Part shown: positions 7,699 through 20,351 of the stretch, piece after piece
Layout of the letters: each line of letters begins with the position of its first letter
Position numbering within the stretch: position 1 is the stretch's first letter
NCBI GenBank assembly: GCA_903906135.1
Contig: CAIVJE010000165.1
Location: forward strand, 1 to 40,042
Reading direction: 5' to 3'
DNA length: 40,042 nt
Source: an uncultured Verrucomicrobiota bacterium
GTDB taxonomy: Bacteria; Verrucomicrobiota; Verrucomicrobiia; Opitutales; Opitutaceae
Program-made: the position numbers and the translations under genes
The notes under the pieces: generated by a model
The model's input: only the letters and a program-made list of their open reading frames with translations
Told to the model about the DNA's origin: nothing
Databases searched by the model: none

Positions 7699-8052
7699 AT
7701 GTCCACTCACGCCCGCCAAAATCGCCGCAAAACAGTGATTGGTTTCGTCAGCTCCAAGATGGGCGACAAATCAGTCAAGGTTACCGTGCCCTACAAGACG
7801 CCGCATCCACTTTATCACAAGGTGATCAATCGTAAAACCGTCTTGCATGTGCACGACGAGAAAAATGAAACTAAAATCGGGGATAAAATTGAGGTTATGG
7901 AAACCCGTCCCATTAGCCGATTGAAGCGCTGGCGTGTTATCCGGATCGTTGAGGCCTCGGTTGGCCTTAATCTCCTCGCCGTCTCTGAACATGACGTCGC
8001 AGCAGCTGTGCCCACTAAGACCACCAAGTTGAATCAGGCTGCGAAAGCCTAA
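7699..8052 (+). CDS. rpsQ: 30S ribosomal protein S17 with C-terminal tail
   Basis: S17 is an OB-fold protein that binds 16S rRNA helices 7 and 11. The core carries RRKTVIGFVSSKMGDKSVKVTV, the YHKVINRKTVLHVHDEKNETKIGDKIEVMETRPISRLKRWRV block and then VRIVEA-type residues. The family is usually about 85 residues; this product has 117. The extra 25-30 residues (AVSEHDVAAAVPTKTTKLN and onward) form a tail rich in alanine and lysine. The stop lies in a clean frame, so the tail is part of the gene. Confidence 0.94.
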   Translation: MSTHARQNRRKTVIGFVSSKMGDKSVKVTVPYKTPHPLYHKVINRKTVLHVHDEKNETKIGDKIEVMETRPISRLKRWRVIRIVEASVGLNLLAVSEHDVAAAVPTKTTKLNQAAKA

Positions 8053-8074
8053 TTAATTTCCAGGAGACACTACC

Positions 8075-8440
8075 ATGATTCAGATGCGTTCTATTTTAGA
8101 TATTGCCGATAATACTGGCGCGCGGCGCGCGTCCATGATCGGCAAGATCGGGCATCCTTCCCGCTACGCTCACGTCGGCGATATTATTACAATCAATATC
8201 AAAGAGAGCAGCACCGATGCTACGGTGAAAAAAGGTGAGGTCGTCAAGGCCGTCATCGTACGGACGCGGGCTCCGCTGCGTCGCGCCGACGGCAGCTATC
8301 TCCGTTTTGACAGTAACGCGGTGGTTATTATTGGGGAAGATGGCAATCCTAAGGGGACCCGCATTTTCGGCCCGGTTGCTCGCGAGCTCCGCGCCAAGAA
8401 TTACATGAAGATCATCTCGCTCGCTCCGGAGGTCCTCTAA
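8075..8440 (+). CDS. rplN: 50S ribosomal protein L14
   Basis: L14 has 121 residues and lies at the subunit interface. [18 protein letters not shown], the [14 protein letters not shown] strand, the [10 protein letters not shown] block and the [14 protein letters not shown]-terminus are all diagnostic. AGGAGA lies about nine bases before the ATG. It opens the spc part of the cluster and is followed one base later by rplX. Confidence 0.96.
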
Positions 8441-8441
8441 C

Positions 8442-8723
8442 ATGCAGAAATTCCATATCAAACGTAACGATGCGGTAATCGTCATCGCTGGTTCCCATAA
8501 AGGGAAGCAGGGCAAAGTTCTCGAGATTCGTGCGGCTAAAAATCGTGCAGTCGTTGAGGGCGTAGCGATGATTAAAAAACATCTTAAGAAATCTCAGGAA
8601 AACCCACAGGGGAAAATTGCTGAACGTGAGGGCACAATTCACGTCTCAAATCTTATGCTGCTTTCCCGATACGAGCAGTCTAAGCGCACTAAACTGCCAG
8701 CCACAACCGTGGCGAAGGCCTGA
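8442..8723 (+). CDS. rplX: 50S ribosomal protein L24
   Basis: L24 is an early assembly initiator for the 50S; this one has 93 residues. The KOW motif region is VIVIAGSHKGKQGKVLEIRAAK near residues 12-34, and KKHLKKSQENPQGKIAEREGTIHVSNLML follows as in L24. It is about ten residues shorter than the E. coli protein at the C-terminus. GGAGG sits inside the end of rplN, 8-12 bases before the ATG, so the two are likely coupled. Confidence 0.94.
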   Translation: MQKFHIKRNDAVIVIAGSHKGKQGKVLEIRAAKNRAVVEGVAMIKKHLKKSQENPQGKIAEREGTIHVSNLMLLSRYEQSKRTKLPATTVAKA

Positions 8724-8789
8724 GCCTGCAGAGATCTCGATTATTTATATTAACCATTAAGCATCCGGCTCGGAAACCCGGTCGCACCC

Positions 8790-9368
8790 ATGAGCAAACC
8801 ACTCACACCTTTACAAAAACACTACGTCGAAACGGTTATTCCCGCTTTGACTGCCGCTCGCGGTTATACGAATAAGCATCAGGTGCCTAAGCTTGATAAG
8901 ATTGTTATCAATACTGGCATTAGCTCCGAGGCCGACAAAAATATCATCGCGGAGACTGCTCGTGATATCGGCCTAATAGCTGGCCAGAAGCCTGTGCTTA
9001 ATCGTTCGAAAAAGGCCATCGCCAATTTCAAGCTTAAACCTAATCAAATTACTGGGTGCCACGTTACGTTGCGGGGTGAAAGTATGTGGCATTTCTTTAT
9101 GCGTCTCCTTGCTGTGGCGCTGCCGTCTATTCGAGATTTTCGCGGGGTGCCTAATAAATTGGATGGGCAGGGAAATTATACCATCGGCATCACCGATTTT
9201 ACTATTTTCCCAGAAATCGTTGTTGAAAATAACAAGCGCCAGATGGGGCTTGATATTACTTTTGTGACCTCGGCCGAGACGGATGATGAAGCTCGCGAAT
9301 TTTTAAAACTCATGGGCATGCCGTTCCGCCGGATCGATCCAGTGCCTGCTAAATCCACCGCTGCTTAA
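8790..9368 (+). CDS. rplE: 50S ribosomal protein L5
   Basis: L5 has 192 residues and anchors 5S rRNA and contacts P-site tRNA. Supporting blocks are VPKLDKIVINTGI, the TGQKPVLNRSKKAIANFKL equivalent near residue 70, the RGESMWHFFMRLL segment and the GIGD-like ITDFTIFPEI. The 66-base spacer before it holds no recognisable binding site, and the start is preceded by CCC. Confidence 0.95.
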   Translation: MSKPLTPLQKHYVETVIPALTAARGYTNKHQVPKLDKIVINTGISSEADKNIIAETARDIGLIAGQKPVLNRSKKAIANFKLKPNQITGCHVTLRGESMWHFFMRLLAVALPSIRDFRGVPNKLDGQGNYTIGITDFTIFPEIVVENNKRQMGLDITFVTSAETDDEAREFLKLMGMPFRRIDPVPAKSTAA

Positions 9369-9380
9369 CCTTACCGCGCC

Positions 9381-9686
9381 ATGCCGAAAACCTCTGCTAT
9401 CGAACGCAACAAGAAGCGTATCCGCCTTACCGCTAAGCATGCTGTCAAGCGTGCGGAGCTAAAGGCGATTCTCGCCAATCCCGCCACTACCGACGAAGAA
9501 TTTTTCGCCGCACAAAAGAAGCTGGCTAAATTACCTCGTAATTCCTCAAAGGTCCGCATTCGTAACCGTTGCTCGCTCAGCGGTCGACCGCGCGGCTTTC
9601 ATCGCCGTTTCGGTGTCTCCCGCATCACGCTCCGCGAGCTCGCGCTTGCCGGCAAGATTCCTGGAGTCACTAAATCCTCCTGGTAA
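9381..9686 (+). CDS. rpsN: 30S ribosomal protein S14, zinc-free long form
   Basis: S14 has 101 residues and binds the 30S head near the A site. The C-terminal half [27 protein letters not shown] is unmistakable. The protein is the long form without the CxxC...CxxC zinc ribbon of the short form. The start is preceded by GCC. It is followed by a 59-base spacer that contains a perfect seven-pair hairpin before rpsH. Confidence 0.96.
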
Positions 9687-9704
9687 AACACTTTCCCGCC
9701 GGAA

Positions 9705-9721
9705 GTCGGATATGATCCGAC
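9705..9721 (+). other. Perfect hairpin in the rpsN-rpsH spacer
   Basis: GTCGGAT and ATCCGAC flank the three-base loop ATG, giving a perfect seven-pair stem. No T-run follows, so it is unlikely to be an intrinsic terminator. It could affect mRNA stability or translation of rpsH; S8 is a known translational repressor in E. coli, but its target there lies elsewhere. No function is assigned. Confidence 0.4.
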
Positions 9722-9745
9722 GGGCAATCTAACCTCCATCCATCC

Positions 9746-10138
9746 ATGACCGATCCGATTAGTGATTTTTTGACCCGCCTACGCAATGCGTCGAAGGCCG
9801 GTCTCGCCGAGTGCGTAATGCCGCACTCTAATCTTAAGGAAAGTCTCGCCGGCATTCTTAAAGCCGAAGGCTTCGTACGTGCAGTAGCCACCGGGACTGA
9901 AGAGCGCGGGCATAAGACTCTCATCGTAACGATGAAGTATGTTGATAGCGCTCCGGTTATTACTGGTCTCAAACGCACTTCAACGCCTGGCCGTCGGATT
10001 TATACAGGCTACTCTGAAATCCCGCGTGTCTTGAATGGCCTCGGTCTTTCGATCATTTCCACTTCCAAGGGTCTCATGAAGGACCAGGACGCTCGGCGCC
10101 ATAAACTCGGCGGCGAACTCGTCTGCACCGTCTGGTAA
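9746..10138 (+). CDS. rpsH: 30S ribosomal protein S8
   Basis: S8 has 130 residues and binds 16S rRNA helix 21. MTDPISDFLTRLRNASKAG opens it, and it closes with GLSIISTSKGLMKDQDARRHKLGGELVCTVW, the characteristic S8 C-terminus. The start is preceded by a short ATCC repeat (ATCCATCCATG) and lacks a Shine-Dalgarno. Confidence 0.96.
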   Translation: MTDPISDFLTRLRNASKAGLAECVMPHSNLKESLAGILKAEGFVRAVATGTEERGHKTLIVTMKYVDSAPVITGLKRTSTPGRRIYTGYSEIPRVLNGLGLSIISTSKGLMKDQDARRHKLGGELVCTVW

Positions 10139-10152
10139 GGAGAATAACCACC

Positions 10153-10698
10153 ATGAGCAGAATCGGCAAACAACCAGTACAAATTCCTGACAAGGTCAAA
10201 ATCGATATTAAAGACACCACCGTGTCTGTCGAGGGGCCTAAGGGCAAAGTCTCCAAGACTTTTGCTTCAGTCGTTAAAATTGAAAAGAAAGATAACACCA
10301 TTTGCGTATCGCCGCTCGATGAGACTCGGTTTTCTCGTGCGATGTATGGCACGGCTCGCTCAGTCATAGCCGGCATGGTTAAGGGCGTAAGTGTCGGTTA
10401 TCTTAAAGAGCTTGAGATTCAAGGGGTTGGTTTCAAAGCCATCCTAAAGGGTAACCAGCTTGATCTCGCCTTGGGCTATTCGCATCCGATTCTTCACGAT
10501 ATTCCTGAAGGCATCAAAGTTACCGTCACCGATCAGACCAAATTAAAGATTGAGGGCGCTGATAAGCAGCTCGTTGGTCAGGTCACCGCTGAAATTCGCG
10601 CTTACTATCCGCCAGAGCCTTATAAGGGCAAGGGCGTGCGTATTGTCGGCGAGTACGCTGAACGTGTCCGTCGTAAGGAAGGTAAGACCGTCGCTTAA
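10153..10698 (+). CDS. rplF: 50S ribosomal protein L6
   Basis: L6 has 181 residues and lies near the factor-binding site. MSRIGKQPVQIPDKV, EGPKGKVSKTF and the C-terminal RAYYPPEPYKGKGVRI signature are present. AAGGAGA overlaps the rpsH stop 11-17 bases before the ATG, giving one of the stronger ribosome-binding sites here, and the start itself is in an ACC context. Confidence 0.96.
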   Translation: MSRIGKQPVQIPDKVKIDIKDTTVSVEGPKGKVSKTFASVVKIEKKDNTICVSPLDETRFSRAMYGTARSVIAGMVKGVSVGYLKELEIQGVGFKAILKGNQLDLALGYSHPILHDIPEGIKVTVTDQTKLKIEGADKQLVGQVTAEIRAYYPPEPYKGKGVRIVGEYAERVRRKEGKTVA

Positions 10699-10712
10699 AC
10701 GAACCACCACCC

Positions 10713-11075
10713 ATGAAAACAGTTTACAAAGCTCAACTCCTCCAGAAGCGCAAATGGCGCATTCGCAAGAAAGTGACCGGTACGGCCGTGCGCCCTCGCC
10801 TGAGTGTCAAATTCTCTGGCAAACATATTTACGCGCAGGCGGTAAACGACGATGCGGGCGCGACCCTCGTATTTCTTTCTACGCTCGATCCCGAGACCCG
10901 GAAATCGAAAGTAAAGGGCAATGTTGCCGGAGCCAAATCGCTAGGCGCTGCTTTTGCGGCCAAAGCCAAAGCCGCTGGTATCACTGGGGTGGTTTTCGAT
11001 CGCAACGGTCGTCTCTTCCACGGTCGCGTCAAAATCTTTGCTGATGCTGCCCGTGAGGGTGGTCTACAATTTTAA
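10713..11075 (+). CDS. rplR: 50S ribosomal protein L18
   Basis: L18 has 120 residues and binds 5S rRNA with L5. The block VTGTAVRPRLSVKFSGKHIYAQ, the AKSLGAAFAAKAKAAGI segment and VVFDRNGRLFHGRVKIFADAAREGGLQF at the C-terminus are typical. The first 20 basic residues match the usual flexible tail. The start is preceded by CCC. Confidence 0.95.
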   Translation: MKTVYKAQLLQKRKWRIRKKVTGTAVRPRLSVKFSGKHIYAQAVNDDAGATLVFLSTLDPETRKSKVKGNVAGAKSLGAAFAAKAKAAGITGVVFDRNGRLFHGRVKIFADAAREGGLQF

Positions 11076-11084
11076 TCTCCGCTC

Positions 11085-11597
11085 ATGAATTACAATTCAA
11101 CCAGATCGTCTTCCGGCCCGCGCTCCAATAAAGAATCGGCTGAGCCCGGCATGTACGAGAAAGTAGTTTTCATCAATCGATGCGCCAAAGTAGTTAAAGG
11201 CGGTCGCCGCTTTAGCTTTTCGGCTTTATCTGTCGTGGGCGACGGCAAGGGCAATGTCGGCATCGGTTACGGCAAGGCTAACGAAGTGCCTGATGCGATT
11301 AAAAAATCTACCGAGTCAGCCAAAAAGCGGATGGTGTCGGTAAAACTTAAGGGCAGCACAATTCCGCACGAGGTCCTCGGTGAATACGATGGGGGTAAAG
11401 TATTTCTTCGCCCTGCTTCCACTGGCACTGGCTTGATTGCTGGCGGCGGGGTGCGAGCGGTTCTTGAAGCCGCTGGCGTCCACAATGTCCTTACAAAATC
11501 GATGGGCTCAAAAAACCATATTGCCGTTGTGCATGCCACTTTGAACGGACTGCGCCAACTCCGGCTAGAAGAGGATTTCAAAGCTCTCCGCGCTTAA
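11085..11597 (+). CDS. rpsE: 30S ribosomal protein S5
   Basis: S5 has 170 residues and contributes to decoding fidelity and mRNA unwinding. [29 protein letters not shown] is the dsRBD-like N-terminal signature, and the [24 protein letters not shown] block is in the C-terminal domain. About 20 extra serine-rich residues precede the core. In most bacteria rpmD follows; here the next gene is rplO. Confidence 0.96.
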
Positions 11598-11619
11598 TTT
11601 AATTAATCAAACTCCGAGT

Positions 11620-11641
11620 CGCGCCTCATCGCTGAGGCGCG
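11620..11641 (+). other. Perfect nine-pair hairpin in place of rpmD
   Basis: CGCGCCTCA and TGAGGCGCG flank a TCGC loop, a very stable GC-rich stem. It lies in the 68-base spacer between rpsE and rplO, exactly where rpmD (L30) would normally be. No T-run follows, so a canonical terminator is unlikely. mRNA processing, stability or a protein-binding role are possible. Confidence 0.55.
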
Positions 11642-11665
11642 GCGAACTAATCAGGAATATCTATC

Positions 11666-12112
11666 ATGCGTCTTCACGAATTAAAAAATGTCCCCGGTGC
11701 CGTACACCGCAAGAAACGCGTTGGCTGCGGCGAAGGCGGCGGTCACGGTAAAACGTCCACGCGCGGTGGTAAGGGCCAGAGCGCTCGTTCCGGCAGTTCT
11801 ATCCGTCCAGGTTTTGAGGGCGGCCAGATGCCCCTTTACCGTAAATTGCCTCATCGCGGATTCAATAACTACGAATTTCGTACCAGCTATGCGGTTGTTA
11901 ATGTCGGCGATCTCGCGCGACTTGATGCCGCAATTTCTGAAGTGAATGCAGAGGTATTGGCGCAAGCTGGCCTCGTGCGCAGGGGCATCAAGACGCTTAA
12001 GATTCTCGGCGATGGTGAAATCACCCGCGCCCTCAAGGTGACTGCGCAGAAATTTACGGGCTCGGCTAAAGCTAAACTCGAAAAAGCTGGCGGTCAGGCT
12101 ATCACGGCCTGA
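11666..12112 (+). CDS. rplO: 50S ribosomal protein L15
   Basis: L15 has 148 residues and is a late 50S assembly protein. MRLHELKNVPGAVHRKKRVGCGEGGGHGKTSTRGGKGQ is the glycine-rich N-terminal extension typical of L15, followed by GFEGGQMPLYRKLPHRGF. AGGAA lies about 11 bases upstream. secY follows after 59 bases without an obvious hairpin. Confidence 0.96.
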   Translation: MRLHELKNVPGAVHRKKRVGCGEGGGHGKTSTRGGKGQSARSGSSIRPGFEGGQMPLYRKLPHRGFNNYEFRTSYAVVNVGDLARLDAAISEVNAEVLAQAGLVRRGIKTLKILGDGEITRALKVTAQKFTGSAKAKLEKAGGQAITA

Positions 12113-12171
12113 GTGGGGCAGTGTTAGCCATCACTCGCTTCTTGCGTAACTTTGCTTCCTGATTCTCCAAA

Positions 12172-13671
12172 ATGTTCTCTGCCTTCACGAACTCCCTGAA
12201 GATTCCTGAGCTTCGCTCGCGGATCCTTTATACGCTTGGGCTGCTTTTTGTGGCACGTGTTGGTGCGCACATTCCGCTTCCTGGCATCGATCCGAAGCCG
12301 TTGCAGGCATTTTTTGCTGATCAAACGGCCAATGGAGGCGGCGCTCTTGTCGGTCTGTATAACATGTTTACTGGTGGGGCTCTTGTGAAGGGAGCCGTCT
12401 GCGCTCTTGGCATCATGCCCTACATTAGCGCTTCCATTATCTTCCAGCTTTTGACCGCCGTAGTGCCAATGCTCAGTCGCTTGCAGCAAGAGGGAGATGT
12501 TGGCCGCCAAAAACTCACGCAGTATACGCGTTATGCGACTGTCATTATTTGCTTAGTACAAGGAGTCCTTTTGATTTTAGCTCTCGAAAATCCTGCCCGG
12601 CTTTTTTCTGGATTTGATGTTAACCAGTACGGACAGATTGTCATTGTGAGCAAATTTTGGTTCATGGTGCAGTCGACCATCTTTATGACGGCCGGAACCA
12701 TGTTGCTCATGTGGCTCGGCGAGCAGATCACCCAGCGCGGCATAGGCAATGGTGTTTCACTGCTCATTACCGTTGGCATTTTGGCCGATATCCCGGGGGC
12801 TGCGATGGCCACCTACCAGTTGTTTTTTGCCCCGATCGGCGTTGCCAAGCTTGGCTTGCCGCAGGCGACCATGATGATCGCTCTTTTTATTATTGTAACG
12901 ATGGGAATCATCGCCGTTACCCAGGGCCAGCGGAAAATCCCCGTGCAATACGCCAAGCGCGTAGTCGGTCAGAAGGTGTACGGCGGGCAGAGTTCGTTCC
13001 TCCCGCTTAAGGTCAATTACTCGGGCGTCATGCCGGTCATCTTCGCTAGCGCGATTCTACTCTTCCCACAGCAGATTCTTTCCCAACTTGGAGCCGCCTT
13101 TGCGCTACCGTTCCTCGTCGAATTTTCCAATAATCTGCTCCAAGGCCACTGGATGTATTATACGTTCACGGCATTACTCATTCTTTTCTTCAGTTATTTT
13201 TGGGTCTCGGTTATGTTCAAGCCGATCCAGATTGCCGATGACCTCAAGAAATACGGCGGCTATATTCCCGGCGTGCGCCCTGGCGAGCCGACGGCTAGCT
13301 TTCTCGACTTCATCATGACCCGCCTTACTTTGGCTGGTGCGGTTTTCTTAACCATTATTTCCATTCTGCCCGACTTACTGCTATTCCAATTATCGGTACC
13401 GCCACGCGTTGCTTATTTCTTTGGTGGTACGGGTATGCTGATCACGGTTGGCGTGATTCTCGATACGATGCGTCAAATCGAAACTTTTCTCTTGCAGCGT
13501 CATTACGATGGGTTCCTGAAAAAAGGGCGCATTCGTGGTCGCACTACTTCAGCGAATGTTGCAATTGGTGAAGCGGCCAGCGATAAGTCAGTTATGCAAC
13601 TGACTGCCGTTATGGTTATTATACTTTTAGTTGGCCTGACTGCATGGGCCGTCCGCCACTTTGCTCTTTAA
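12172..13671 (+). CDS. secY: Preprotein translocase channel subunit SecY
   Basis: SecY forms the protein-conducting channel in the inner membrane and works with SecA, which is encoded later in this window. The 499 residues contain about ten hydrophobic segments. Family hallmarks are ARVGAHIPLPGID near residue 25, the GIMPYISASIIFQLL plug/TM2 region, RQKLTQYTRYAT, the GIGNGVSLLI segment and the cytoplasmic GQKVYGGQSSFLPLKVNYSGVMPVIFA. It is some 55 residues longer than E. coli SecY, mainly through longer loops. The start (CCAAAATG) has no Shine-Dalgarno. Confidence 0.96.
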   Translation: MFSAFTNSLKIPELRSRILYTLGLLFVARVGAHIPLPGIDPKPLQAFFADQTANGGGALVGLYNMFTGGALVKGAVCALGIMPYISASIIFQLLTAVVPMLSRLQQEGDVGRQKLTQYTRYATVIICLVQGVLLILALENPARLFSGFDVNQYGQIVIVSKFWFMVQSTIFMTAGTMLLMWLGEQITQRGIGNGVSLLITVGILADIPGAAMATYQLFFAPIGVAKLGLPQATMMIALFIIVTMGIIAVTQGQRKIPVQYAKRVVGQKVYGGQSSFLPLKVNYSGVMPVIFASAILLFPQQILSQLGAAFALPFLVEFSNNLLQGHWMYYTFTALLILFFSYFWVSVMFKPIQIADDLKKYGGYIPGVRPGEPTASFLDFIMTRLTLAGAVFLTIISILPDLLLFQLSVPPRVAYFFGGTGMLITVGVILDTMRQIETFLLQRHYDGFLKKGRIRGRTTSANVAIGEAASDKSVMQLTAVMVIILLVGLTAWAVRHFAL

Positions 13672-13683
13672 TACTTTACTTCG

Positions 13684-14151
13684 GTGAACAGGGCTGAACA
13701 CTCCAGCCCCTTTTCCAATTTTGCTTCGGCGAAATCGAAAGTCATTCTCCTTGGTCCGTCGGGCTCGCATTTTGCGGGTTTGATCCTCCAAGGCCGTTCT
13801 TTGAATCTTGAGCACGTCTCTCCTGCGTTTTTTGTGCAACAGGAGATTTCGCGACGCACGCCACTGGGCCAACAAGCCCGATTGGCGATCACGCGCGGCT
13901 TTGCCGTGCCTGACCAAATTCATCTCGCAGTAATGCGTAAGTGGTTTTGGGCGCGCAAACCCGATGCGGGATTTCTTCTCGAAGATTTCCCGGCTACGCT
14001 GCTCCAAGCGTTGGTGTTCGACGAGTGGCTCGAAGCTCGCGGTGAGACTATCACTTGCGGCTTTGCGTCTGATCCGCTTTCTGCGGACCTCGTTGTCACC
14101 CACTACCGCACTTACGGACTCCTCTTAGGAGCCATTCCTGCCGCCGCTTAA
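13684..14151 (+). CDS. Degenerate adenylate kinase-like protein (predicted pseudoenzyme)
   Basis: This gene occupies the usual adk position between secY and map, and its 155-residue product still aligns with adenylate kinase. VILLGPSGSHFAG (residues 20-32) matches the P-loop strand, TPLGQQARLAITRGFAVPD matches the NMP-binding segment, and GFLLEDFPATLLQA (96-109) matches GFLLDGFPRT. Key residues are gone: the P-loop lysine is Phe30, the GKGT glycine is His29, the arginine after the NMP-binding STGD-type turn is Gln52, and the FPRT arginine is Ala104. The LID is nearly absent; 120-150 may be a remnant of the C-terminal helix. The GTG start lies 12 bases after secY, and the stop abuts the map ATG. 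An intact frame suggests a retained non-catalytic role. Function is unknown. Confidence 0.72.
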   Translation: MNRAEHSSPFSNFASAKSKVILLGPSGSHFAGLILQGRSLNLEHVSPAFFVQQEISRRTPLGQQARLAITRGFAVPDQIHLAVMRKWFWARKPDAGFLLEDFPATLLQALVFDEWLEARGETITCGFASDPLSADLVVTHYRTYGLLLGAIPAAA

Positions 14152-14925
14152 ATGATTCCTATAAAAAACATGGAAGCAATTAAGCGGATGCGCGAATCCT
14201 GCCTCATCGCCGCGACGGTTCTCGCCCGGCTGAAGGAGCAGGTCCGTCCCGGTATCACGACTTACGACTTGGATCAAATCGGCCGCGATCTCATTGCCTC
14301 GTTTGGCGCTCGCAGCGCCTGCTACGGCTACCAGTTGCACGCTCAGCGCTATCCAGCCTACACTTGCCTCTCAGTTAATGAAGAGGTGGTTCATGGCATT
14401 GGGTCCCTAAAGCGCGTCCTGCGTGACGGTGATATTATTTCGCTCGACGTCGTTATTGAATATAACGGCTACATCGGCGATAATGCTATTACGGTCCCAG
14501 TCGGCGCCATTGCGCCCCAGACCGCTAAATTACTGGAAATCACTGAATCCGCTTTGCGTATCGGCATCCAGCAAGCGCTACCCGGTAATCGAATCGGTGA
14601 TATCTCTAATGCCATCCAAACCTTTGTTGAATCTCACGGTTTCAGCGTAGTGCGAGATATGGTTGGTCATGGAGTCGGTTGTGCGATGCACGAGGAGCCA
14701 CAAATCCCCAATTTTGGCCGGCGCAATGCCGGCGAGAAAATTAAAGCGGGGATGACGCTGGCGATCGAACCGATGGTTAACTTTGGCCGCTTTGAGGTAA
14801 AGACGTTAGCTGATGGTTGGACGATCGTCACGCGTGATGGTTCGCCATCCGCCCATTTCGAACACACCGTGCTGACAACTGATTCTGCTCCAGAGATTCT
14901 CACTATTCTTCCCGCTGCTTTTTAA
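14152..14925 (+). CDS. map: Methionine aminopeptidase, type I
   Basis: The enzyme removes the initiator methionine from nascent proteins. All expected residues are visible in the 257-residue product: His81 in VVHG, metal ligands Asp99, Asp110, His173 in GHGVG, Glu206 in AIEPM and Glu237 in HFEHT. There is no N-terminal zinc-finger extension. The ATG follows the previous stop with no gap, so translation is probably coupled. infA and rpmJ, commonly next, are absent before rpsM. Confidence 0.96.
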   Translation: MIPIKNMEAIKRMRESCLIAATVLARLKEQVRPGITTYDLDQIGRDLIASFGARSACYGYQLHAQRYPAYTCLSVNEEVVHGIGSLKRVLRDGDIISLDVVIEYNGYIGDNAITVPVGAIAPQTAKLLEITESALRIGIQQALPGNRIGDISNAIQTFVESHGFSVVRDMVGHGVGCAMHEEPQIPNFGRRNAGEKIKAGMTLAIEPMVNFGRFEVKTLADGWTIVTRDGSPSAHFEHTVLTTDSAPEILTILPAAF

Positions 14926-14974
14926 TTTATTCCTTTTTTTCACTCTCAACTCCTAACTCTTAACTAAAACATCT

Positions 14975-15364
14975 ATGCCTCGTCTCCTCGGCGTCGAACT
15001 CCCCGCCAAAAAGAAAGTCAGCTTTTCCCTCCGCTATATCTATGGCATTGGTCCCGCTCGGGCCGATCTCATCATTGAGGCCGCCGGCCTTGATGCCAAC
15101 ATGCGCGCCTCGGATCTTTCCGAGGAGCAGCTGAATAAAATCCTCCATATTATCACTGATAATAAATGGGTGGTTGAGGGCGATTTGCGCCGCGATATCG
15201 CGGGCAATTTGAAGCGCCTTCAGGCCATCAATTGCTATCGAGGCATTCGTCACCGTCGGAGCCTGCCGGTACGTGGTCAACGTACCAGCACCAATGCCCG
15301 TACCCGTAAGGGCCCGCGCAAGACCGTCGGTGTTACTAAGGTCAAGGAAGTCTCTAAATCTTAA
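14975..15364 (+). CDS. rpsM: 30S ribosomal protein S13
   Basis: S13 has 129 residues and bridges the 30S head to L5 and the tRNAs. The helix-hairpin-helix region [22 protein letters not shown], then [36 protein letters not shown] and TNARTRKGP are diagnostic. The usual first residues MARI..V are replaced by [10 protein letters not shown], a minor variant. The 49-base leader is pyrimidine-rich and lacks a Shine-Dalgarno. Confidence 0.96.
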
Positions 15365-15375
15365 AACTTATCTCC

Positions 15376-15990
15376 ATGTCCGAAGAGAAATCTGTTCCCA
15401 AGAAGGAAAAGCTGCCTAAGAAGGCCGCCGCTGCTGCCGTCGATACCGCCCTCGCGGCTTCTGCTGCTCCTGCCGGCAATCGTCCTGATGCACCTGCCAA
15501 GGGCGGTAAGGAAAAGGCCCCTAAGGCCGAAGCCGCTGCGCCCGTTGAATTAGTCGGTGGCGTACCCAAGTCCGTCACGGCTGAGGATCTCCTTAAGGAG
15601 GAGCTGTCCTCTGTAAAGGTCCGCAAGGCCAAGGGGTCTAAAAACATCACCTCCGGCATCGCGAATATTGCAGCGACGTTTAATAATACCATTGTCTCTA
15701 TCACGGACGGCAAGGGTAACGTCATCTCGTGGTCGAGCGCTGGCAAATGTAACTTCCGCGGCTCGCGTAAATCGACTGCCTACGCAGCTCAGGTTGTGGC
15801 TCAGGATGCTGCCCGCAACGCCATGGCTCACGGCCTTAAAGAGGTCCAGATTCGAGTAAGTGGCCCTGGTCTTGGTCGTGACTCAGCCATTCGCGGTCTT
15901 CAGGCGATTGGTCTAGAAATTTCGTCTATCATCGACGTAACCCCGGTGCCACATAATGGCTGCCGTCCCCGTAAACGTCGTCGCGTATAA
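15376..15990 (+). CDS. rpsK: 30S ribosomal protein S11 with long N-terminal extension
   Basis: The C-terminal core (from about residue 83) is clear S11: [32 protein letters not shown] and the tail [16 protein letters not shown], whose Asn-Gly is the known isoaspartate site. S11 lies on the 30S platform. The protein is 204 residues against about 129 normally. The first 75-80 residues are rich in Ala, Lys, Pro and Glu and look disordered. No in-frame ATG, GTG or TTG exists between codon 1 and the core, so the extension must be translated if the protein is made. Confidence 0.95.
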
Positions 15991-16022
15991 TCTGCCCTTT
16001 AACCCGCTAACTATTTTTTACC

Positions 16023-16634
16023 ATGGCTCGCTACACAGGACCATCCACTCGCATCAGCCGTCGTTTCGGCCAATATATCATTGGCTCGGCCAAGGTGCTC
16101 GAACGCCGCAATTTCCCACCTGGGCAACACGGCCCAAAATCACGGCGTAAGCTTTCCGAATATGCGGTTGGCCTCGCTGAAAAGCAGAAGCTCCGTTTTA
16201 TATACGGACTTTTGGAGCGCCAGTTCCGGCGTACCTTCGCCATTGCCAAGAAGGAACGTGGCGTTACCGGCGAGCGTTTTCTCCAGTTGCTTGAGACTCG
16301 CCTCGACAGCGTAGTGTATTTGTTGGGTTTTGCGAAGAGTCGTGCGGCGGCTCGCCAGTTGGTCAATCACGGCCATGTTCGCGTTAACGGCCGGAAAGTT
16401 GATATCGCAAGTTACTCAGTTTTGCAGGGCGATGAGGTGGAAATGAAGGCAGTTAATTCCTCTCGGCAACTTGCTACTCGCGCAATCGAAGAAAATCGTG
16501 CGCGGGTTGTGCCGGCTTGGTTAACGCGTAACGACGAGGCTCTCAAGGGCGCTGTCACGCGCTTGCCCACTCGTGACGAGATGGAGCCATCGATCAACGA
16601 ACAGCTCATCGTCGAATACTATTCCCGCTTCTGA
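16023..16634 (+). CDS. rpsD: 30S ribosomal protein S4, zinc-free form
   Basis: S4 has 203 residues, is a primary 16S-binding protein and often a translational repressor of its operon. MARYTGPSTRISRRFGQ, EKQKLRFIYGLLERQFRRTF and the S4 RNA-binding domain RLDSVVYLLGFAKSRAAARQLVNHGHVRVNGRKV are present. The N-terminal zinc cysteines of the C+ form are missing. The start is in an ACC-ATG-G context with no Shine-Dalgarno. Confidence 0.96.
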   Translation: MARYTGPSTRISRRFGQYIIGSAKVLERRNFPPGQHGPKSRRKLSEYAVGLAEKQKLRFIYGLLERQFRRTFAIAKKERGVTGERFLQLLETRLDSVVYLLGFAKSRAAARQLVNHGHVRVNGRKVDIASYSVLQGDEVEMKAVNSSRQLATRAIEENRARVVPAWLTRNDEALKGAVTRLPTRDEMEPSINEQLIVEYYSRF

Positions 16635-16731
16635 GCCTGCTCGGCTCATTTTGCCAAAGCTCTGCGAGCTTGGGCAGATCTCTTACTCTTCACTCATCCA
16701 GTTCCAGTCTCACTCAACTATCATTCCTGCC

Positions 16732-17733
16732 ATGCCCAAGCGCCTCGGAAAGTTCGAAATTCCCTCCAAGCTCACTAAGATTGAGGAGGGTTCCACCAAC
16801 ACCTACGCCAAGTTTATCGCCGAGCCTTTCGAGGCTGGTTATGGACATACCATCGGCAATTCTCTCCGTCGAGTTTTGCTGAGCTCAATTGAGGGCAGTG
16901 CGATCAGCTCGATTAAAATCGAGGGCGTGAACCATGAATTCCAGAGTGTGGACGGCGTGGTCGAAGACGTGACGGATATTGTTCTTAATCTTAAAAAAGT
17001 TCTTATCCTTTCAGAAAAACGCGAAACGCTAAAACTGCATCTGAAAGTTAACCGCGAAGGTCCAGTGACCGCTGCCGATATTCAGGCCGACGCAAATATT
17101 AAGATCGTCAATCCCGAGCAAGTTATCTGCACCCTCGACACGAAGCGTACCTTTGAAGCCGAGATTGAGATTAAAACAGGCCGCGGTTATTGCCCTGGCG
17201 AAAATAATAAAAAAGAAGAACAGGCGATTGGAGTCATCCCGATTGATTCTCTTTTCTCTCCTGTGCGCTTGGTTCGTTATTCGGTGGAAAATACCCGCGT
17301 CGGTCAGATCACGGACTATGATAAGCTTGTGCTCGAAATCTGGACAGATGGTCGGATCACCCCTGACGATGCCCTCAAGCAATCAGCCTCCATCCTTAAG
17401 CATCACCTTGATGTGTTTGATCGCGTTTCTCAGGAGAATTATGAGTTTGAGAGTGTGGCCGCAGAAGTTTCTGAGGAGCAGAATAAACTCCGCAAGTTGC
17501 TGAACATGTCGGTTAACGAAATTGAGCTCTCAGTTCGTGCGGCAAATTGCTTGAATAACGCTAATATCACCACTGTCGGAGAGCTGGCCATGAAGACTGA
17601 GCAAGAGATGCTCAAGTATCGTAACTTCGGTAAGAAATCACTTAACGAGATCAAAGAAAAGCTTGAGGCCCTTGGGTTGTCCCTCGGCATGAAGTTTGAC
17701 GAACGTCTCCTGGACACTAAAAAAGAAGCCTAA
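16732..17733 (+). CDS. rpoA: RNA polymerase alpha subunit
   Basis: The alpha subunit scaffolds RNA polymerase assembly and binds UP elements and activators. The N-terminal domain contains PFEAGYGHTIGNSLRRVLLSSIEG near residue 30. The C-terminal domain has IELSVRAANCLNNANITTVGEL and YRNFGKKSLNEIKEKLEALGLSLGM, including the arginine used for DNA contact in E. coli. The frame is open from 16573, but that would overlap rpsD. The ATG at 16732 gives 333 residues and the canonical start, so I chose it. A 97-base spacer precedes it. Confidence 0.96.
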   Translation: MPKRLGKFEIPSKLTKIEEGSTNTYAKFIAEPFEAGYGHTIGNSLRRVLLSSIEGSAISSIKIEGVNHEFQSVDGVVEDVTDIVLNLKKVLILSEKRETLKLHLKVNREGPVTAADIQADANIKIVNPEQVICTLDTKRTFEAEIEIKTGRGYCPGENNKKEEQAIGVIPIDSLFSPVRLVRYSVENTRVGQITDYDKLVLEIWTDGRITPDDALKQSASILKHHLDVFDRVSQENYEFESVAAEVSEEQNKLRKLLNMSVNEIELSVRAANCLNNANITTVGELAMKTEQEMLKYRNFGKKSLNEIKEKLEALGLSLGMKFDERLLDTKKEA

Positions 17734-17760
17734 GCGCAGGCGCGAATATTGAATCGCGGT

Positions 17761-17802
17761 TGGTGGGTAAAGGCTCACCCCGTAGTTTTTTTCTACCTAC
17801 CA
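17761..17802 (+). other. Possible long-loop hairpin upstream of rplQ
   Basis: TGGTGGGTA and TACCTACCA can pair over nine positions with one G-U, around a 24-base loop that contains a run of seven Ts. The rpoA-rplQ spacer of 158 bases is the longest in the ribosomal cluster. The structure is only moderately stable and could be chance; a leader or attenuator role is speculative. Confidence 0.25.
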
Positions 17803-17891
17803 TTTATCACTTAATTAGGCTCTCGCGCCGTCCGCTGCCGCCCAACGCTGCGACCGGATTGCCGATCGGGGGCCAATAACCCAAACCACCA

Positions 17892-18401
17892 ATGCGTCAC
17901 AATAAACATCACGCCTCACTCGGCGTAACTCGCGAGCATCGTAAAGCGATGCTTTCTAACATGGGCGCCAGCCTGATTAAGCACGGTCGCATCGAGACCA
18001 CGCTAACCAAGGCTAAAGCACTCCGTCCTTTCATTGAAAAGGTTATCACTAAGGCTAAAAATGCTGCCGCGGCAGCCGTCAAAGCTGATGCGATCCATTT
18101 GCGCCGTATGGCGCTAAAGGATATTCGCGATGAGGGCGCTATTACGCTTCTTTTTAATGAAAAAGCCGCGCAGTTCGCTAAACGTCCAGGTGGCTATACA
18201 CGAATTTACAAACTTGGCCCGCAGCGCATTGGTGATGCGGCCGAGATGGCCATCATTGAGCTAATTAGCGCGGAAGATGAAGGTTACTCCAAATCTCGGG
18301 GTAAAAAGAAAGGATCAAAGAAAGCTGGCGCTAAGAAATCAGCGGTGGCCGCGGAATCTGTTTCAGCGGTCGAAGTTGCACCGGAAGCGCCTAAGGCCTG
18401 A
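17892..18401 (+). CDS. rplQ: 50S ribosomal protein L17 with C-terminal tail
   Basis: L17 lies at the exit side of the 50S. MRHNKHHASLGVTREHRKAMLSNMGASLIKHGRIETTL is the near-universal N-terminus, and the core ends around residue 128 (GYTRIYKLGPQRIGDAAEMAIIEL). About 40 further residues rich in Lys, Ala, Ser and Val make 169 in total, against roughly 120-130 in the family. The gene closes the cluster and is followed by an intrinsic terminator. Confidence 0.95.
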   Translation: MRHNKHHASLGVTREHRKAMLSNMGASLIKHGRIETTLTKAKALRPFIEKVITKAKNAAAAAVKADAIHLRRMALKDIRDEGAITLLFNEKAAQFAKRPGGYTRIYKLGPQRIGDAAEMAIIELISAEDEGYSKSRGKKKGSKKAGAKKSAVAAESVSAVEVAPEAPKA

Positions 18402-18430
18402 AGAAAAAGCGAGTCCATTGAATTATCGAA

Positions 18431-18459
18431 AGCGTCGACTTAAAGGTCGGCGCTTTTTT
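18431..18459 (+). terminator. Intrinsic terminator of the ribosomal cluster
   Basis: AGCGTCGAC pairs with GTCGGCGCT over nine positions with one G-U wobble, around a six-base TTAAAG loop, followed at once by six Ts. It lies 30 bases after the rplQ stop. It is the only clear rho-independent terminator I see in the window. Confidence 0.8.
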
Positions 18460-18502
18460 ATTTCATCTTGGCTCCGGCGTTACTTGGTGTGAACTGGGGT
18501 GC

Positions 18503-18739
18503 GTGGCCATTGTCCCTGATTTCACCTTTGATTTGCTTGCCTACGGAGTGCCGGTGCTTGGTGGATTTGGCTTTTTATGGCTTTATTACGATCAACGCGA
18601 TCGACTGTTTTACGACTCCGAGCGTCGCAAGATTACGTTCCATTGCATCCGCTGTGATCATCTTTACACGAAAAAAACCGGCACTGACCTGGCACAATGT
18701 CCACGCTGCAACCATCTTAATACTCGCTTGAAATTCTAA
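18503..18739 (+). CDS. Small membrane-anchored zinc-ribbon protein, function unknown
   Basis: The 78-residue product has one hydrophobic segment (about residues 10-28, LLAYGVPVLGGFGFLWLYYD). A soluble end then carries two CxxC pairs, HCIRC and QCPRC, separated by about 15 residues, as in a zinc ribbon. The start is a GTG preceded by a G-rich stretch. The gene lies alone between the rplQ terminator and guaA. Some automated pipelines might label such ribbons HypA-like, but nothing else here supports a nickel role. I do not recognise a characterised family. Confidence 0.72.
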   Translation: MAIVPDFTFDLLAYGVPVLGGFGFLWLYYDQRDRLFYDSERRKITFHCIRCDHLYTKKTGTDLAQCPRCNHLNTRLKF

Positions 18740-18774
18740 GGGGCTGGGGCGGGGTTATCAGGCGTAGCGTTTTT

Positions 18775-18802
18775 TTGATTTCACTTTAATAGAAACTATT
18801 TT
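18775..18802 (+). promoter_or_regulatory. Possible sigma70-type promoter for guaA
   Basis: TTGATT and TATTTT are spaced 16 bases apart, ending 10 bases before the guaA ATG. Each hexamer matches four of six consensus bases. The AT-rich spacer following a G-rich stretch is compatible with a promoter, but the match is weak. Confidence 0.25.
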
Positions 18803-18812
18803 AATTTTTCCT

Positions 18813-20351
18813 ATGGCGCAGACAATTGCTGTTCTCGATTTTGGATCTCAACTCACGCAGGTAATTGCCCGCCGAATTCGTGAGTGTCAGATTTATTCCA
18901 AGATTTATCATTTCAGCACCCCCGCGGCAAAATTGCGTGAAGACGGCGTGGTGGGGGTGATTCTCTCTGGTGGTCCGCAGAGTGTTTACGCCAAAACGGC
19001 GCCGCATCCGGATGCCGATATTTTTAAACTTGGCGTGCCGGTGCTTGGGATTTGCTATGGGGTGCAGCTCATGGGCTATTTTCTCGGGGGTAAGGTCGCG
19101 CTCAGTAAGGCCCGCGAATATGGCCTTGGTCAGTTAACGATCAAACGGCCAGGGAAACTTTTTACTGGCTTACCTCGGCAACTGCGGATCTGGAATTCGC
19201 ATGGAGACAAACTCACTAAATTGCCGCCGGGTTTTGTGGCAACCGCGGTGTCTGAAAATTCGCCCTTCGCAGGTATTGAAGACCGTCGTCGGGGGTTTTA
19301 TGGGATTCAATTTCATCCGGAGGTTTTTCATACCGAGCGCGGGGTAGATATAATCCGAAATTTCCTGGTCGGTATTTGCCGCGCAAAGCAGGACTGGACG
19401 ACGAAGGATTTTATTGTTCAAGCGGTCGCCGACATTCAGGGGAAGGTGGGTAAATCTCGAGTCCTGCTTGGTTTGTCGGGTGGAGTTGATTCCTCCGTGG
19501 CAGCAGCCTTATTGCACAAGGCTATAGGTCGCCAATTAACATGTGTGTTTGTGGACAACGGGCTATTGCGTAAGGATGAGCGGGCTTATGTGGAGGCACT
19601 TTATAAGAGGAATTTTAAAATCGATTTACGCGTAGTCGATGCATCCGCTCTTTTTATTAAGCGGCTCAAAAGGATTGTTGACCCTGAGGCGAAGCGCAAA
19701 ATTATTGGACGTACCTTCGTAGAAGTTTTCGAAAAATCGCTAAAGTCTATTGGGGGTGCGGAATTCTTAGGGCAGGGGACTTTATACCCAGATGTCATTG
19801 AAAGTGTTTCCATTGCCGGTAATCCCGCATCGTTAATCAAGACTCACCATAATGTTGGTGGATTACCCGATCGAATGAAGTTGAAGCTGATCGAGCCACT
19901 CCGGGCTTTGTTCAAAGATGAGGTTCGTCAAGTGGGGGCGGCGCTCGGTTTGCCGAAGGAAGTTGTCTGGCGTCAGCCTTTCCCCGGTCCCGGCTTAGGC
20001 GTCCGCGTAATGGGTGATATCACGGCCGAGAAATTAGAAATCCTCCGCAACGCTGATGCGGTCTTGCAGGACGAGATGATGCGCTCAGGTTATTATTGGA
20101 AGGTCTGGCAATCGTTTGCGGTTTTTCTGCCGGTGAAAACGGTTGGGGTTTTCGGTGATGAGCGCACGTACGATTACGTGATCGCCTTACGCATTGTAGA
20201 AAGTATCGATGCCATGACTGCCGACTGGGCGAAGTTGCCGCATGAGTTGCTGCAAAAAATATCCAGCCGAATCACTAATGAGGTGCGCGGAGTTAGTCGG
20301 GTCGTGCTCGATATCAGTTCCAAGCCACCGGCGACCATCGAGTGGGAGTAA
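18813..20351 (+). CDS. guaA: GMP synthase (glutamine-hydrolysing)
   Basis: The enzyme aminates XMP to GMP using glutamine and ATP in the cytoplasm. The 512-residue protein has the class I glutaminase first, with Cys81 in GICYG and His168/Glu170 in FHPEV. The ATP-pyrophosphatase P-loop LSGGVDSSV follows near residue 219. The dimerisation domain ends in KPPATIEWE, the universal GuaA C-terminus. FPGPGLGVR, a GuaA signature, is also present. Length and domain order are normal. Confidence 0.97.

Follow-up and report, generated by a model that had tools for sequence, protein, structure and literature searches.

What does a gene still do in the place of adenylate kinase (ADK) after the residues that catalysis needs have gone? 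The question is raised by a frame of 155 codons between secY and map in a contig of an uncultured Opitutaceae bacterium (Verrucomicrobiota); the window, by which we mean the whole stretch of DNA that was analysed, is 40,042 nucleotides long. The frame, called pseudo-adk here, is intact, as the initial annotation had stated, and it starts 12 nt after the secY stop codon in the operon order secY-pseudoadk-map-rpsM-rpsK-rpsD-rpoA.

12172..13671, + strand, secY, the 5' neighbour
13674..13680, + strand, CTTTACT directly after secY, of which CTTTAC is at least 97% conserved in 122 aligned RNA-bearing slots
13684..14151, + strand, pseudo-adenylate kinase coding sequence, 155 codons, GTG start, TAA stop
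14152..14925, + strand, map (methionine aminopeptidase), which begins directly after the pseudo-adk stop codon

In the slots fetched, secY stands before and map after pseudo-adk, and in the relatives examined the pseudo-adk stop codon overlaps or nearly abuts the map start. The relatives with names are verrucomicrobial MAGs, many of them labelled Opitutaceae, Lacunisphaera, Oleiharenicola, Opitutus or Candidatus Didemnitutus. CTTTAC after secY was not seen at the slot start of L076, L188, L199 and L202.

Adenylate kinase ancestry and selection on the protein

We compared the frame with family models and solved structures, and it turned out that it matches the Pfam ADK model (PF00406) with 38.9 bits, above the curated cut-off of 26.8 (E=1.2e-9). 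Twenty NCBIfam models match it at E<=10, mostly adenylate kinases and all under their curated cut-offs, and solved adenylate kinases match the protein with 1.4e-9 at best. An AlphaFold model, made from an alignment of 58 sequences, has a mean pLDDT of 89.3, and its top PDB matches are adenylate kinases (E about 3e-8). The likeness to ADK, which had been noticed by eye, is thus confirmed by sequence and by predicted fold.

For the residue comparison, the reference was L076, a catalytic-looking homologue from the same slot. The P-loop of the window protein reads GPSGSHFA, with Phe30 and His29 in place of the lysine and the glycine, and the lysine of GxxGxGK is absent in all 58 aligned relatives. 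The AMP-binding arginines of adenylate kinase are R36 and R88 in E. coli numbering. The first of them is Gln52 in the window and the second is Ala104, which is Ala in 56 of the 58 relatives and Arg in 2; the LID and the stretch after it are deleted relative to L076. All of these losses had been read correctly for the window in the initial annotation, but the position of Gln52 still holds Arg in 25 of 58 relatives, so the first AMP arginine is not lost family-wide. By these comparisons the pseudo-ADK is a member of the adenylate kinase family and fold without residues that catalysis needs, and loss of catalysis is predicted. Compared with bacterial adk, as found in the slot copies of the sister family f24 and of L076, it has a like fold, the same slot and the SLNxEHVS, RxWFW and VFDEWLE-like blocks, but it is without the P-loop lysine, the second AMP arginine and the LID. 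The one f24 copy tested scores above the NCBIfam adk cut-off.

The order sample comprised 132 genomes, 120 of them SecY-positive, and the interval 3' of secY was fetched for 60. The own family (f1) has the pseudo-gene in 5 of 5 slots and the sister family f24 a full-length catalytic-looking adk in 6 of 6, and in the slots of other families there is neither adk nor pseudo-adk (0 of 49). L076, which comes from a named MAG, has a full adk in the slot as well. Intermediates also exist: L199 and L202 keep the LID region and have lost the P-loop, and L073, L078 and L188 keep the second arginine and have lost the LID. In a tree of the Map protein with 42 rows (L051 and L115 left out), 26 RNA-bearing rows form a clade with support 96/85, and these five intermediates branch beside it, outside; support is weak at the base of the tree, and L077/L198 cannot be placed firmly. 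Because f24 has a catalytic-looking adk in the slot and intermediate stages exist, the sequences indicate a stepwise loss of the active site, in place, from a catalytic adk in the secY-map interval of the Opitutaceae, in line with the decay within the adk slot that had been proposed.

Matches to pseudo-adk at E<=1e-8 occur in 157 of 200 family genomes (including at least one, G249, with an empty slot and the match elsewhere), in 123 of 148 good ones and in 44 of 49 genera. Of 20 listed unmatched family genomes, 9 lack a SecY match in the assembly, in 8 rpsM comes next after secY, and in 3 the slot is decayed; 23 further unmatched genomes lie outside this breakdown. Pseudo-adk and map are both gone, with secY followed by rpsM, in those 8 genomes and in G249 (L190-L197, L200; genera g73, g77, g83 and g108). 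Their secY-rpsM interval has CTTTAC after secY in 9 of 9 cases and CAA(C/T)AACTTGC before rpsM in 8 of 9. In three genomes of family f2 (L161-L163), map was not found between secY and rpsM.

Besides, the own genome contains two further ADK-domain genes, on contigs C63 and C215, where a true adk had been expected elsewhere; neither reaches the NCBIfam adk cut-off. The C63 protein (L002 1324-2550, G000:C63) has 408 aa with a P-loop, DGFPRT and a C-terminal extension. The C215 protein (L001 1396-2316, minus strand, G000:C215) has 306 aa with an intact P-loop, a four-cysteine LID and a contracted AMP-binding region. A further ADK frame of 293-779 aa is present in 23 of 25 family genomes (G000-G024), the two exceptions being 69% and 88% complete, and therefore a working AMP kinase elsewhere in the genome is likely, judged by sequence. 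Frames near 408 aa occur in most of G000-G024 and may be the housekeeping AMP kinase. Some genomes contain tandem double-ADK frames of about 460-500 aa (L031 1459-2922 in G009:C49; G010:C5; G017:C66; G023:C1 near 2315110-2316003); in the L031 frame both domains carry a P-loop, FPRT and a LID with cysteines. A split enzyme, in which the pseudo-ADK complements the contracted C215 ADK, was dropped because for G003 and G012, two relatives with one contig each, nothing but the pseudo-ADK and a long ADK is listed.

The protein itself is probably still under selection, as the codons suggest. The frame is intact in 125 of 126 unique island-bearing slots, of which about 1 would be expected from base composition, and the lengths of the 82 unique cores differ by multiples of three. 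In the codon alignment (without L186, L189 and L206, whose ends did not fit, and without L076, L199 and L202, which are full-length or LID-bearing), pairwise dN/dS is 0.50 overall for pseudo-adk and 0.17 for the start of map. It falls to 0.09-0.12 in codons 110-121 (VFDEWLEARGE), where synonymous sites are free, and codons 84-89 are similarly low with 0.05-0.21; higher values are seen for codons 2-37 (0.50-0.61) and codons 122-136 (0.54-0.76). Since dN/dS varies along the gene, protein selection is patchy. Retention after the loss of catalytic residues, as the initial annotation had supposed, is borne out by the purifying selection, the intact frames and a motif dN/dS of about 0.1. The initial annotation had named three findings that would speak against its reading, namely no significant structural match, absence from close relatives, and dN/dS near 1 as in a decaying pseudogene; we found a significant match, the gene in close relatives and dN/dS of about 0.5 (much lower in two motifs of the protein), and neither broken frames (125 of 126 intact) nor dN/dS near 1 (0.50) as marks of a pseudogene. 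The initial annotation was thus right about the ancestry and retention of a pseudoenzyme. Its proposal of a ribosome- or SecY-linked scaffold or nucleotide sensor gains no support from these results, which do not count against it either, and the probable structured RNA that shares the coding sequence had escaped it.

Evidence for a structured RNA in the coding sequence

In an alignment of 122 unique slots (without eight slots missing the GAGCACGTCTC core and without all six f24 slots), four islands stand out as distinct nucleotide blocks, and their third codon positions are nearly frozen. Hairpins lie between the islands, near the gene start and just before map. The elements, in window coordinates, are as follows.

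13716..13738, + strand, hairpin N1, arms co-evolve (z -6.7 with one sequence per genus)
13795..13823, + strand, island 1, CGTTCTTTGAATCTTGAGCACGTCTCTCC, synonymous sites frozen
13810..14005, + strand, RNA core by covariance model R1 (E=1.1e-30; the window copy is among the 71 training rows)
13819..13846, + strand, hairpin P2, compensatory changes (genus-level z -5.3)
13842..13853, + strand, island 2, GGAGATTTCGCG
13860..13912, + strand, P3a, hairpin region of variable length (genus-level z -6.0, 14 usable sequences)
13925..13941, + strand, hairpin P3b, weaker (genus-level z -3.8, inside the map-control range)
13951..13970, + strand, island 3, GCGCGCAAACCCGATGCGGG
13967..13992, + strand, hairpin P4, outer 4 bp invariant, inner stem co-evolves (z -6.7)
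13987..14009, + strand, island 4, TTCCCGGCTACGCTGCTCCAAGC
14116..14133, + strand, 3' hairpin just ahead of map, whose 3' arm contains AGGAG in the window (z -7.4)
P1, putative: ACGCTGCTC of island 4 could pair with GAGCACGT of island 1

In five-codon windows, synonymous differences fall to 0.07, 0.16, 0.31 and 0.16 of the expected number in islands 1-4; outside the islands this ratio is mostly 0.7-1.2, and its minimum in the start of map is 0.70. The stretch that separates islands 1 and 2 was extracted in 84 different sequences, nearly all of which form one stem-loop, with arms that differ yet are complementary. Swapping arms between species made the pairing weaker, with z -6.8 for P2, -6.6 for P4, -5.0 for P3b and -3.2 for P3a, compared with -0.2 to +1.6 in nine control windows (a tenth was without data). 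A scan for co-evolving hairpins found N1 and the hairpin before map in addition. In the scan map windows reach -5.1, so relatedness inflates the arm-swap statistic. With one sequence per genus (32; the planned representatives L168, L178 and L234 are left out, and the windows were chosen after the hairpin scan), N1, P2, P3a, P4 and the 3' hairpin, five of the seven tested, lie beyond all 36 map controls (minimum -5.0, mean -0.51), and P3b (-3.8) and N2 (-1.3) do not.

Other measures were taken on the alignment A1, that is 71 of the 82 unique cores, picked by a pattern that demands the islands. In its 71 rows, 89.6% of cells are paired, and the covariation score is 0.097 vs 0.070 +/- 0.003 for shuffled and 0.022-0.064 for slid structures, although slid structures equal or exceed the real one in three of the five measures, namely pairs changed on both sides (12 at -3), cells of that kind (67 at +2, where the real structure has 64) and pair types (36 at -3, where it has 32). 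Pair counts also support the compensatory changes in P2. The window core folds better than all of 200 shuffles (z -4.0); with RNAalifold, 13795-13865 is far more stable than column shuffles, and 13925-14060 is no more stable than they are (z -0.7).

The putative long-range helices P1 (GAGCACGT with ACGyTGCTC) and P3 (TTTCGCG with CGCGcAAA), which were kept in the covariance model, hardly ever vary, and covariation is therefore silent on them. As the A1 pattern demands the islands, they could hardly vary there; P1 is also invariant in the alignment A3, whose 43 RNA-bearing rows include some copies that the island pattern did not pick. The complementarity of the islands in P1 and P3 is no better than in shuffles (p 0.14 and 0.59), and when flanks are included their pairing probabilities are low (mean 0.28 and 0.26).

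Taken as comparative evidence, these results make it very probable that a structured RNA inside the pseudo-adk coding sequence of the derived Opitutaceae clade is real. It would account for the frozen synonymous sites. It is predicted to consist of a core of about 200 nt and further hairpins near the gene start and before map, and it appears to be conserved in its own right. The catalytic-looking slot copies lack islands 2-4, unlike pseudo-adk, and L076 has most of island 1.

Several other readings of the nucleotide pattern were set aside. The window contains an antisense open reading frame (13627-14103), and an overlapping or antisense gene there would not account for the co-evolution of hairpin arms. 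A promoter or protein-binding-site reading of the islands was weighed by eye. Column-pair mutual information over the slot gave no coherent helix, and the arm-swap test was used instead.

Distribution of the RNA and its persistence

We searched 61 family genomes with R1 and found matches in 50 of them at E<=1 and in 44 at E<1e-20. None of the genomes has more than one strong match, and all 44 strong matches are located inside pseudo-adk matches. In the own genome, the window copy is the sole match at E<=1. In a sample of the phylum, 18 of 194 genomes have matches at E<=0.001, all within the family. Weak matches (13-28 bits) in seven island-less slots (L114, L116, L073, L077, L078, L202 and L262) reflect coding homology and are not counted as RNA. 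Five of the genomes with secY followed by rpsM, without pseudo-adk and map, were searched and gave no R1 match, which shows that the element can be dispensed with.

Two lineages retain the RNA although the protein has decayed. L189 (G203) has a broken frame and has lost the protein motifs that follow island 4, and this copy, from outside the training set, scores 87 bits with R1. In L187 (G216) the frame is open with a scrambled protein, and R1 gives 75 bits for a copy in the training set. On the Map tree, each of them groups with a different intact relative (100/97 for both). The converse case, a protein without the RNA, is found in L073, L078 and L188.

The element matches no known RNA class that was searched for: Rfam 15 (4227 models) gave nothing at the element in window positions 8000-20000 (E<=5), and for 8 homologous loci (E<=10) no hit came close to the gathering score of its model. 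A tRNA/tmRNA search on 4 loci gave nothing credible.

Possible functions and related systems

We consider it fairly probable that pseudo-adk is a bifunctional relic of adk, which encodes a selected protein and carries an operon-internal cis-regulatory RNA in the mRNA. That the RNA controls the secY-pseudoadk-map-rps operon in cis is a more tentative proposal, to which we give slightly less than an even chance; it is put forward because of the fixed operon position, the loss together with map in one genus group, the single copy and the co-evolving hairpin before map. As a control element internal to the operon, the RNA would act within the secY-pseudoadk-map-rpsM-rpsK-rpsD-rpoA mRNA, and the translation or stability of adjacent genes would most likely be set by a ribosomal protein or some other factor that binds it; the identity of the ligand is a guess, and the context of a ribosomal-protein operon makes a ribosomal protein the natural first one. 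Ribosomes must cross the RNA to translate pseudo-adk and reach map, so translation and folding are likely linked, and ribosomes crossing the frame may remodel the RNA. The hairpin before map may act on map initiation; its AGGAG is about 20 nt from the ATG, which is far for a Shine-Dalgarno site.

A wider reading, on which we are evenly divided, is that a dead adk was rebuilt in place, codon by codon, into a new class of large regulatory RNA with several hairpins over almost the entire gene, which controls its operon neighbours, as a protein-to-RNA transition still in progress. Both products would still be made by most carriers, and two lineages would have kept the RNA longer than the protein.

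A stand-alone noncoding RNA, processed from or transcribed in the operon and acting in trans, with an incidental location, would fit the single strong match per genome, the highly conserved islands and the persistence without an intact protein in two lineages. We regard it as unlikely, since the strong matches sit inside pseudo-adk and the reading frame is kept through the RNA, pseudo-adk and map were lost together in one genus group, of which five genomes are without the RNA, and the searches gave neither a tRNA or tmRNA (4 loci) nor a credible Rfam match (window and 8 loci).

It is improbable that the pseudoenzyme protein alone is what matters, as the scaffold or nucleotide sensor that the initial annotation had in mind, with the nucleotide conservation coming from codon bias or translation pausing. 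The ADK fold predicted with high confidence and the strong purifying selection on two protein motifs, whose synonymous sites are free, are what such a reading would expect, but it does not explain why synonymous constraint is limited to the islands and found neither in other parts of the gene nor at the start of map, why hairpin arms co-evolve, or why RNA elements persist in L189 and L187 despite protein decay.

The pseudo-ADK protein could also bind its own RNA as an autoregulator, given that the retained nucleotide-binding fold (as predicted) is co-located with a single-copy RNA. This is quite improbable, as two lineages still have the RNA although their protein is no longer intact and, to our knowledge, adenylate kinases are not RNA binders.

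A functionless decaying pseudogene, kept by chance or only by translational coupling to map, is hardly credible and largely refuted: the lost catalytic residues, dN/dS of about 0.5 overall against 0.17 for the start of map and a stop codon that, in the relatives examined, lies across the start of map or very close to it would agree with it, but 125 of 126 frames are intact where about 1 is expected, motif dN/dS is about 0.1, the islands are frozen, and 123 of 148 good family genomes have matches at E<=1e-8.

For a bifunctional relic with an RNA in the operon mRNA, some known systems can be compared. In the alpha operon of E. coli, S4 exerts feedback. S8 retroregulation, a feedback in a ribosomal-protein operon, is cited in PMC2864571. 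Like these feedback elements (S8, S4), the present RNA is a structured mRNA element in a ribosomal-protein operon, here upstream of map-rpsM-rpsK-rpsD-rpoA. Unlike them, it sits in the coding sequence of a dead enzyme, its ribosomal-protein ligand is only presumed, and it has no Rfam match. It also resembles the candidate structured RNAs that PMC2864571 obtained by comparative genomics of intergenic regions in its invariant islands, variable co-evolving hairpins and narrow taxonomic range. The pipeline described there extracts intergenic regions, so an element inside a coding frame would be missed. Of the papers on Opitutaceae adk/secY, Opitutaceae noncoding RNA, Verrucomicrobia structured RNAs or ribosomal leaders, and adenylate kinase pseudoenzymes whose titles and abstract starts were compared, none deals with the RNA or with the pseudoenzyme. 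The pseudo-adk RNA is a structured mRNA element that is new in sequence and unusual in arising inside a dying enzyme gene.

Regulatory-RNA searches often start between genes, and an RNA in a retained coding frame escapes them. In this family, the whole path can be traced in living relatives, from a catalytic-looking adk through P-loop loss, LID loss and RNA gain to protein decay with the RNA kept, which makes it testable whether a dead enzyme gene can be reused as raw material for a regulatory RNA. The place in a ribosomal-protein operon points to control of the synthesis of the ribosome or the secretion machinery in a little-studied group.

We also compared the element with ribosomal RNA. The whole RNA core has no excess match to 16S or 23S rRNA, and a search of two family genomes for a 16S gene of their own gave none. 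Against E. coli 16S positions 378-392, island 3 agrees in 14 of 15 nt, a level reached by 0 of 200 shuffles but in one of 12 comparisons, and it is regarded as a weak lead.
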